Shown: positions 30,710-33,828 of the stretch, piece by piece
Position numbering within the stretch: position 1 is the first letter of the stretch
How the letters are laid out: every line of letters begins with the position of its first letter
NCBI RefSeq assembly: GCF_000526375.1
Contig: NZ_JAFY01000005.1
Span: forward strand, 186,001-250,000
Reading direction: 5' to 3'
DNA from: Aminiphilus circumscriptus DSM 16581
Lineage (GTDB): Bacteria > Synergistota > Synergistia > Synergistales > Aminiphilaceae
DNA length: 64,000 nucleotides
The notes under the pieces: generated by a model
The model's input: the letters and a program-made list of their open reading frames with translations, nothing else
The model's database searches: none
What the model was told of the DNA's origin: nothing
Made by a program: the position numbers and the translations under genes

Positions 30710-31144
30710 GTGTTAGAGTGGGTCGTGTTTTTGGAAGCGACTTCGGGAAACCGTCTCGGCTCGCTGAGGAGCGCTCGAGATCTTCTGGTGGCCTCGGGTT
30801 TTGAAATTCAGAAGACGAGCGGTGTCTACGAGATAGATTTCTCTGAAACGCCCCGCCTTTTGGCATTGGGTGTGTGTCTTCTCGTAACCGCCCCGGAGGA
30901 AGCAGAAGCACATTTTTCCGCTCTCGACCGGGCAGTCCGCGGTTTGCCCTGCGCCCCGAAATGTTCCATTTTGGCCTCGTCGGACAGGGAAGGCTTCTTG
31001 ATCCGTTCCGCCGGAAAGGGCTCTTTTCCACGTATCCCCTTCCTTGAGGTTCTTCCCGAATGGTTGCCGACAGCGGACGTTCCGGAACGAAGTCCCGGCA
31101 ATCCCCCCGAACCGGAAGATCCCGTTTTCATCTCGTTTCTCTGA
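30710..31144 (+). CDS. Hypothetical protein, unrecognised
   Basis: Predicted 144-residue soluble protein with no family I recognise. It alternates hydrophobic and charged segments (LLALGVCLLVTAPEEAEAHF) like a folded alpha/beta domain and ends in a Pro/Glu-rich tail. The GTG start at 30710 lacks a good Shine-Dalgarno site; a second GTG at codon 6 is possible. It lies 37 bp before the secreted protein gene on the same strand. Codon composition resembles its neighbours, which is the main support. Confidence 0.5.
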   Translation: MLEWVVFLEATSGNRLGSLRSARDLLVASGFEIQKTSGVYEIDFSETPRLLALGVCLLVTAPEEAEAHFSALDRAVRGLPCAPKCSILASSDREGFLIRSAGKGSFPRIPFLEVLPEWLPTADVPERSPGNPPEPEDPVFISFL

Positions 31145-31181
31145 CGGCGACAAAAGCCTGCGATCCTTCAGGGGGTATGTC

Positions 31182-31937
31182 ATGCAGCAGTGTATCCGTC
31201 GTTTCACCACGGCACTTCTCGTTTTTCTCGGAACATTCCTCTCCGTGCTTCCCGCATATGCCGTGGGAAGCACGACACGAGTTCTCTCAATTCCGGAGTA
31301 TCCCTTCAGGATCGTCTTCACCGAGAAGGACGGACGCATTGTAAAAGCCTTTTTCCGAGCACCGGGCCACCTCAGGCGTCTTCCTGAGGTGGAAGGACTT
31401 CGTTATTCCGCCCAGCATCTGACCGTGTGGCACGCAGACCTGGACTGGAGACGGGATGTCTTGTGGCGTTTGAGCTTCGTCGATCCGGAAAACCAGGCGA
31501 AAGGACAGTTCCTGTGGTTCGGCGCGCTCTCCGGCTCCTCTCAATTCTGGCTCGTCGCGAGCCCCGCAGGAACGAGCCTGTGGGACACTCTTCCATTGAA
31601 AATCATGGCACCACTGGGAACATCCCTCTACGTCTCTCCCTCCACACCGGCCTATCAGGCCACCGGCGAAAGCACGGAAGGCCCATCCCTTTCCTTCATC
31701 TACACGATCTCACTTACCGAGAACGGCCCCTGTTTCGTCAACGTACCCGATGTGTACCAGCAACTCCTTCCCGTGACAACCCTCGTCGCATCCCATGAGA
31801 CCGACAAGAGCAGACGGAAGGCCTATTCGCTTCTTCTCCAGGATTTCGAAGCACTGGCAAAGAGCGAACAAGTCTCTTTGGAAAGCATCATGAACCTCTC
31901 CTGGAAGCAGCTTCTCACCGGACGATGGAATCCTTGA
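31182..31937 (+). CDS. Secreted protein of unknown function
   Basis: Protein of 251 residues with a clear signal peptide (basic CIRRF, then TALLVFLGTFLSVLP, cleavage after AYA). The mature part is mostly beta-strand-like, with aromatic pairs (LTVWHADLDW, FLWFGALSGS) and no catalytic motif I recognise. I chose the start at 31182 for AGGGGG 7 bases upstream. It probably shares a transcript with the gene before it. It is convergent with rlmN. Confidence 0.7.
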   Translation: MQQCIRRFTTALLVFLGTFLSVLPAYAVGSTTRVLSIPEYPFRIVFTEKDGRIVKAFFRAPGHLRRLPEVEGLRYSAQHLTVWHADLDWRRDVLWRLSFVDPENQAKGQFLWFGALSGSSQFWLVASPAGTSLWDTLPLKIMAPLGTSLYVSPSTPAYQATGESTEGPSLSFIYTISLTENGPCFVNVPDVYQQLLPVTTLVASHETDKSRRKAYSLLLQDFEALAKSEQVSLESIMNLSWKQLLTGRWNP

Positions 31938-31978: not shown

Positions 31979-32036
31979 CCCTGCCTCCACGCCGGTTGCG
32001 TTTGCATCGACAATCCAGGCCGTGAAAAACAAGGGC

Positions 32037-33803
32037 TCACGCGTTTCGCTCGTTACGTCTCCGGCTCGGACGTTCATTCTCCCGGGAAGTCCGCTTCGAT
32101 GTTCCCGAGCCACGGGACATGTACCCCCGATCCTGACGCCGCTCCCCGCCTTCGGAAGATCTCGGCCCACTCTTCCGGATGTCCCCCGACTCGAAACGAC
32201 CGCGCTCGCCCGGGGCGTGCTTCTCGCCCCTCCGGGAAACACCCTCTTCGGTCCGTTTCATTCCTCTCGCTTTAAATTCAGAAGGACCACGGTTTTCTTT
32301 CCGCTCCGGCAGACCACTTCCCGAATCGGCACGAGGAGCGCGCGAAGAAAAATCCTTCCGCGAGGACCTCTCCGCACCGCTTCTTTCTTTCGCAAAACTC
32401 TCGCCCTCGCGAGGCTGCCTTCCGAATCGGGACGAAGTCCTTTCCTCCCGGGCATCTTTTTCAGCAGAGGACATTCCTCCGGACCGCCCGCCCGAACGAT
32501 TCCGGGGGGAAAATCGACCGGACACCCCAGACCTTTCCCGTTCCGTCTTTCCAAATTTGCCCGATTCGCCGCGAAAACGCCCCTCAATCGCACGTCTTTC
32601 GCCTTTCTCGGACATCTCTTCCACATCCCGCCGCCTACCCTGCGGCGCTTCGGCGGAATTTCTCACTTCCCGGCGTCCCGAACGCCGGTTTCCCACACTG
32701 TCGAGGGAGACACGAGGAGCGCCACCGTGCTGTTTTACGGGGGGCATCTCGCGGGAAGTTCCTGCCGGAGAAGGAGTACTTTCCCGCCCCCGCAGCTGAC
32801 CACACGCACCACGAACATCTCCTCCGCGTTCGCGGCGTAGTTCCGCGTTGACTCCCCAGGCGCGCAGGTGATCCCTGAAACGCTCCGCCCGCTCGCGAGG
32901 AGGGCGTTCGAAATTGCCCGCTCCGGAATTGTAGGGAATAAGGTTCACATAGACCTTGAGATCGCCGATCCACGCCGCCAGCTCCTCCGCGTGGGCGGGA
33001 GAATCGTTCACGTCCCGGAGCAACATGTATTCGAGGGTAATGCGATCCCCTAAAACTCGCTGATAACGGAGCAGTGCCTTTCGCAACAATGCAAGAGGAT
33101 ACTTTTGGTTCAGCGGCATCAGGCGGGAGCGAAGGGAATCGTTCGCCGCATGCAGAGACACGGAGAGTCCGACTCCGAGTGATTCCGACGCAAGGGCGTC
33201 GATACCTGGAACGACACCGGCGGTGGAAATGGTGATGTGCCGCTGCCCCAGTCCCCGCATATGAGGATCCCTGAGCATGCGGATACTTCGAAAAACCTGC
33301 TCTGTATTGAGAAGCGGCTCACCCATGCCCATGTACACCACGTTCTGAATCGGCCCTTTCTGATGCGCCTCGATGGCAAGGACCTGGGTGAGCATTTCTC
33401 CTGCGGAAAGGTTCCGCACGAATCCTTCCTGGCCGGTAACGCAGAAGCTGCAGGCCAAAGGACATCCCACCTGAGAGGAAAGGCAGGCCGTAGTGTGTTG
33501 AGGATGCCGCAGGAAGACCGACTCGATTCGCTCCCCATCCTCAAGCCGCCACAGATATTTCAGAGTTCCGTCAAGAGGGGACATCTCCGCTTTTTCCAGC
33601 ACGGGCATGGTGAAACGAACGAGAGCGTTCAGCTTTCCCCGCAATTCCTTCGAGAGATTCGTCATTTCCTCAAAGGTGAACACGCGCTTTTTGTAGATCC
33701 AGTCGCAAATTTGCCCCGCCCGATAGTCGGGCTCGCCCATTTCGTCCCGCAGGAGCGAAACCCATTCCTCGAAATCCAGTTCCAGGGCATGCAGACGGTC
33801 CAT
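32037..33803 (-). CDS. rlmN: RlmN-type rRNA/tRNA adenine-C2 methyltransferase with long basic tail
   Basis: Radical-SAM enzyme making m2A2503 in 23S rRNA (and m2A37 in some tRNAs). The catalytic core covers residues 1-337: methyl-carrying and mechanistic cysteines are in TACLSS (C107) and GACGQL (C334), and the 4Fe-4S cluster is C114-x3-C118-x2-C121 (GCPLACSFC). YMGMGEPLLN and STAGVVPGID are family blocks. The protein should end there but continues to 588 residues. The extra 250 are low-complexity Arg/Gly/Ser/Glu with repeated RRE, RGE and SGR patterns, likely disordered and RNA-binding. The frame stays open with no frameshift visible. I chose the start at 33803 for GGGAGGAA upstream. Confidence 0.93.
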   Translation of the reverse strand: MDRLHALELDFEEWVSLLRDEMGEPDYRAGQICDWIYKKRVFTFEEMTNLSKELRGKLNALVRFTMPVLEKAEMSPLDGTLKYLWRLEDGERIESVFLRHPQHTTACLSSQVGCPLACSFCVTGQEGFVRNLSAGEMLTQVLAIEAHQKGPIQNVVYMGMGEPLLNTEQVFRSIRMLRDPHMRGLGQRHITISTAGVVPGIDALASESLGVGLSVSLHAANDSLRSRLMPLNQKYPLALLRKALLRYQRVLGDRITLEYMLLRDVNDSPAHAEELAAWIGDLKVYVNLIPYNSGAGNFERPPRERAERFRDHLRAWGVNAELRRERGGDVRGACGQLRGRESTPSPAGTSREMPPVKQHGGAPRVSLDSVGNRRSGRREVRNSAEAPQGRRRDVEEMSEKGERRAIEGRFRGESGKFGKTERERSGVSGRFSPRNRSGGRSGGMSSAEKDAREERTSSRFGRQPREGESFAKERSGAERSSRKDFSSRAPRADSGSGLPERKENRGPSEFKARGMKRTEEGVSRRGEKHAPGERGRFESGDIRKSGPRSSEGGERRQDRGYMSRGSGTSKRTSRENERPSRRRNERNA

Positions 33804-33828
33804 AACACATTCCTCCCTCATTTTTCGA

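Follow-up and report, generated by a model that had tools for sequence, protein, structure and literature searches.

RlmN, a compact radical-SAM enzyme of the textbooks, is a dual-specificity methyltransferase that modifies C2 of A2503 in 23S rRNA and of A37 in tRNA. In Escherichia coli the methyl-carrying cysteine is C355, and the activity of RlmN promotes 50S assembly (PMC11194073). The relative of this enzyme, Cfr, methylates C8 of the same nucleotide of 23S rRNA with a related radical-SAM fold and mechanism, and its structures are without even the C-terminal helix found in E. coli RlmN (PMC13001441). The substrate of the RlmN/Cfr pair is naked, protein-free 23S rRNA, and the contacts of Cfr are mostly with phosphate and sugar (PMC13001441). 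In the literature that we searched, which covered few subscription papers, there was no description of a C-terminal extension of RlmN or of disorder in this region.

The window, i.e., the whole stretch of 64,000 nucleotides of Aminiphilus circumscriptus DSM 16581 analysed here, encodes an RlmN that shares with the known enzymes (TIGR00048; PDB 3RFA, 5HR7, 6FZ6) the core, the catalytic cysteines, the fold and the gene size up to the CGQL motif, but has 251 additional C-terminal residues. The comparisons presented below show an ordinary RlmN with a selectively maintained tail, a trait that recurs in several families of one phylum. The features of the gene are the following:

32037..33803, minus strand: rlmN coding sequence, 588 aa, with the ATG at 33803 and the stop at 32037-32039
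32793..33803, minus strand: catalytic core, residues 1-337, with the RlmN_N domain and the radical-SAM barrel (Pfam PF21016, PF04055)
33441..33464, minus strand: CxxxCxxC iron-sulfur motif, C114-C118-C121, in invariant columns of alignment A1
32802..32804, minus strand: C334, the methyl-carrying cysteine of GACGQL (equivalent to E. coli C355), in an invariant column of A1
32040..32792, minus strand: charged tail, residues 338-588 (251 aa), predicted to be disordered (from composition, dN/dS and pLDDT)

The core is complete through CGQL (residue 337) and keeps all catalytic cysteines, including the second, proton-abstracting one (C107, equivalent to E. coli C118), which is invariant in alignment A1. 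The protein passed the RlmN equivalog model TIGR00048 (357.6 bits for a cut-off of 290), and its sequence matched RlmN of the PDB with E-values down to 2.7e-81. AlphaFold2 modelled residues 1-324 confidently, and the best PDB folds retrieved by Foldseek for the predicted structure were all RlmN (TM of 0.82-0.89, normalised by the target). The protein is not a Cfr, since it scored far under the cut-offs of both Cfr equivalogs (236 vs 530 bits and 233 vs 550 bits). The initial annotation was right about the open frame, the end of the core at C334 in GACGQL and the tail of about 250 residues. The interval that it gave for the tail (32037-33050) does contain it, but also about 86 residues of the core.

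The start methionine of rlmN is the one at which the alignment with a congener begins, and we read a GGGAGG resembling a ribosome-binding site just upstream of it (33813-33818). The gene glyA (SHMT) is also upstream, in the orientation of rlmN. Downstream, a convergent ORF ends at 31937, so that the tail is not a read-through into the neighbour. This ORF (31044-31937, plus strand, 297 aa) had no Pfam or NCBIfam match.

The tail contains 53 R, 37 S, 36 G, 32 E and 13 K. With 66 K+R and 39 D+E, it has a net charge of +27 over its 251 residues (FCR 0.42, NCPR +0.11). Order-promoting residues make up 10% of it, and aromatics are few. AlphaFold2 assigned a pLDDT below 50 to residues 325-588, mostly 27-42 from residue 331 on, in a model built from an alignment of six sequences with only one other tail and whose low-confidence stretch takes in the C334 loop. 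The whole tail of the window's protein is thereby predicted to be disordered, as the initial annotation had supposed; the model supports this without proving it. We retained no hidden domain in the tail, which had no Pfam or NCBIfam match and no confident fold, and we found no tandem repeats in it. The tail had also been likened to RG-rich regions, with recurring RRE, RGE and SGR patterns. The comparison with shuffled tails contradicts both descriptions: RG occurs 8 times vs 7.5 in the shuffles, RGG is absent vs 1.05, and RRE, RGE and SGR occur 1, 2 and 2 times vs 1.4, 1.0 and 1.1, i.e., at the level expected from composition. An RGG/RG domain was therefore rejected. The tail has a biased composition without an enriched motif, and the term net-positive polyampholyte suits it better. 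It is not shared generally by the RNA-modifying enzymes of this genome: a search for tails in the genome returned rlmN only, and tails of the RlmN type were absent from the pseudouridine synthases.

The translation of the tail is strongly implied by its open frame under purifying selection. The congener (G001, same genus, independent assembly) shares the full-length frame, with a tail that is 78% identical, has no stops and differs by a single indel of 27 nt, which is in frame. The changes in the tail are in excess at the third codon position (31/26/61), and its dN/dS is 0.31, vs 0.13 for the core. This conservation excludes that the RlmN frame is open by chance. Four of the other five frames over the tail had dN/dS of 1.1-1.3. 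The remaining one had 0.34, but has its wobble positions in common with the RlmN frame and contains stops in both genomes. In families f5 and f6, dN/dS was 0.13-0.43 over twelve further pairs of tails.

Selection on the tail keeps its charge. Between the window and the congener, 64 of the 66 K/R sites of the tail are retained, vs a neutral expectation of 52.5 (sd 3.0, max 62) obtained by placing the observed nucleotide changes randomly over the window's tail in 2000 simulations. Two pairs of f5 (L087/L093, L101/L102) retained both K/R and D/E at levels that exceed the simulated range or lie close to its top, and in two others (L019/L089, L016/L099) the retention was high within the range. Glycine and most other residues were near the neutral value. 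The initial annotation had proposed to align relatives to see if the composition of the tail is conserved, and the relatives show that it is. Long bacterial low-complexity tails can thus be selected for charge and not for sequence. Tails of this kind would escape ordinary homology searches and family models, as does the present one when searched alone.

We surveyed 61 relatives and 188 genomes of the phylum. Long RlmN frames are concentrated in three families (f1, f5 and f6), all of the order Synergistales, with tails of roughly 50-340 aa. The other tails examined were all net positive (NCPR +0.08 to +0.21), including those of low-GC genomes (L054, L103). In f1, the family of the window, the tail is present in both genomes of genus g1 and extends for at least 85 residues, up to the contig end, in G002 (genus g2), whereas the RlmN of G003 (genus g3) ends short. 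In f6, all four genomes have tails, with RRDDRPRSDGP as an example of the tandem repeats that compose them. A tail is present in most genomes of f5, and several members have lost it. In the members examined of f2, f3, f4, f7, f8, f9 and f11, RlmN ends at most about 21 residues past CGQL. G078 owes its long frame to a run of N. Outside the phylum our sample was small (four outgroup loci and ten records of a plasmid collection): ten RlmN of Bacillota, Pseudomonadota, Fusobacteriota and Actinomycetota extend 4-32 residues beyond CG.L, and those of the outgroup (L032-L035) 2-9 residues.

The tail is lineage-specific, since RlmN ends after CGQL in more distant families and also in G003, a member of the window's own family. 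The initial annotation had thought that relatives ending there would speak against the tail; such relatives do exist, but the congener keeps the tail. In a maximum-likelihood tree of 96 cores, from which G002 was left out, the distribution of tails of at least 40 aa requires 8 changes, and well-supported branches impose no fewer than 5 of these. Most RlmN, including that of G003, are tailless, which argues that the tail is dispensable for the reaction. The tailed RlmN and the related tailless enzymes beside them provide a natural experiment on how disorder could tune an rRNA/tRNA modification enzyme with two substrates. The cores of L042 and L044 (G017 and G025) are the same to the nucleotide, yet their tandem arrays, of type RRDDRPRSD[GA]P, show differences at 41 nt and of 11 residues. 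They are a hypervariable repeat in a housekeeping enzyme.

We propose, with a probability of about one half, that the RlmN tail is a disordered, polyampholytic, net-positive arm acting as an RNA tether on an ordinary core, itself predicted to make m2A in 23S rRNA and tRNA. The arm begins four residues past the methyl-carrying C334, and would adjoin the RNA entry to the active site. It would most likely be an electrostatic tether without sequence specificity. Its interspersed arginines and lysines could make transient contacts with RNA phosphates and keep a long or folding RNA (the protein-free domain V of the pre-23S rRNA, or a tRNA) close to the core. The interspersed acidic residues, together with serine and glycine, would leave the arm soluble and extended. 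For such an arm we infer RNA binding, a better capture of the substrate, and rRNA over tRNA as the main target.

RNA tethering is our leading explanation because the extension is very probably translated, compositionally conserved, predicted to be disordered, and basic. In the DEAD-box proteins Dbp2, Mss116 and CsdA, the C-terminal tails are RNA-binding and tether the RNA to the core (PMC10193013). These tails are likewise of low complexity, often Arg-rich, and placed on a core that acts on RNA, and the RlmN tail has the predicted disorder and the net positive charge of basic RNA-tethering tails of the CsdA and Dbp2 type. However, the enzymes are different, no sequence homology between the tails is shown, and the RlmN tail is strongly polyampholytic and without RGG. 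More generally, low-complexity regions enriched in Arg show an association, in prokaryotes, with proteins that bind RNA or process rRNA (PMC6821194). The 39 acidic residues, the modest net charge and the lack of RGG count against a tether, as do the many RlmN that work without a tail and the conserved motifs of f5 described below.

A serious alternative, above all in f5, is that the tail is mainly a protein-interaction arm. Short linear motifs in a disordered linker would recruit a specific partner, which could be the RNA polymerase, an RNase, a helicase or a ribosomal protein, and in this way deliver RlmN to ribosomes under assembly. We regard this as possible but doubtful. The 22 tails of f5 are mostly unalignable outside two motifs, found once in each tail that has them: SGGF[VI] in 17 tails, and ERYRSGKMKExRPxYR, with one-residue variants allowed, in 18 (regular expression [ED]RYR[SG]G[KR][ML]KxxRPx[YF]). 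When both were searched against eleven genomes, significant matches occurred in RlmN only. They match nothing known and are candidate docking motifs (e.g., in L088, L090 and L099), and their strong conservation points to the binding of a specific partner at least in f5. Yet, they were not detectable in the genus of the window, where the best score of the longer motif (RYRSGKMK) was at chance (L001, L002) and where the window's tail, read by eye, has no SGGF. In addition, 10 of the 38 tails of f5 and f6 carry, close to their C-terminus, an F-x-[KRSA]-F box with a basic end after it, vs 0.3 (max 2) in shuffles, but its regular expression was chosen after inspecting the sequences and the tails are related, not independent. 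Its carriers are f6 and several lineages of f5, which hints at a shared ancestry of the tails of the two families, with losses between them. A bolder reading would derive the tails of Synergistota RlmN from an old, fast-evolving docking arm, whose motifs and charge recruit RlmN to the assembling 50S via a dedicated partner. This we find unlikely; were it true, A2503 methylation would be part of a tethered assembly complex and not a diffusive modification step.

The tail might instead be a weakly constrained lineage-specific extension, arisen by stop-codon loss and repeat slippage, and tolerated without a dedicated function because it is soluble. Its fast turnover would fit, as seen in the arrays of G017 and G025, in the five or more gains or losses on the tree, and in the several members of f5 that lost it. 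Nevertheless, dN/dS is well below 1 in all pairs measured, charged residues are specifically retained relative to the neutral expectation, and the motifs of f5 are conserved; we think this reading less likely still than a general docking arm. Lower again we place a role in condensation, where the tail would promote or modulate a co-condensation with RNA and helicases and be a scaffold or a client of an RNA-rich condensate in the bacterium. A low-complexity Arg-rich polyampholyte, with near-perfect tandem repeats in f6, could behave in this way, and basic C-terminal tails are present as well in the DEAD-box helicases of G153 and G025, but these arguments are of composition, and the tail has few aromatics and no RGG. 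Finally, an artefact of sequencing or assembly, or a fusion to another gene, antisense or overlapping, can practically be dismissed. There is a 272-aa ORF antisense to the tail (plus strand, 32022-32840), so that the earlier description of the tail as antisense to no known gene passed over an open frame. This frame is not a gene: it has no family match, its dN/dS is ~1.09 and it has a stop in the congener. The independent assembly of the congener shows the same open frame, which refutes an artefact, including the removal by frameshift of a stop near codon 340 that the initial annotation had contemplated. A tail produced by high GC was rejected as well, since basic tails are present at core GC3 of 0.28-0.39.

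The survey of the phylum gave some additional observations on RlmN. The enzyme was not found in nine genomes from five genera of family f10 (G012, G021, G028, G035, G041, G046, G050, G054 and G058), which gave only weak partial radical-SAM matches (best E-value 0.003) and of which several are at least 93% complete. This looks like a loss of RlmN across the whole family, and hence probably of m2A too. The RlmN match at L055 (G038) has five internal stops near its C-terminal part, and its frame is apparently broken in the genome or in the assembly. The f5 tail at L103 (G155) changes abruptly from a basic low-complexity region to a non-basic C-terminal stretch (...IVLVTVTLQNPEKLMNHVV...), perhaps by a frameshift within the tail.
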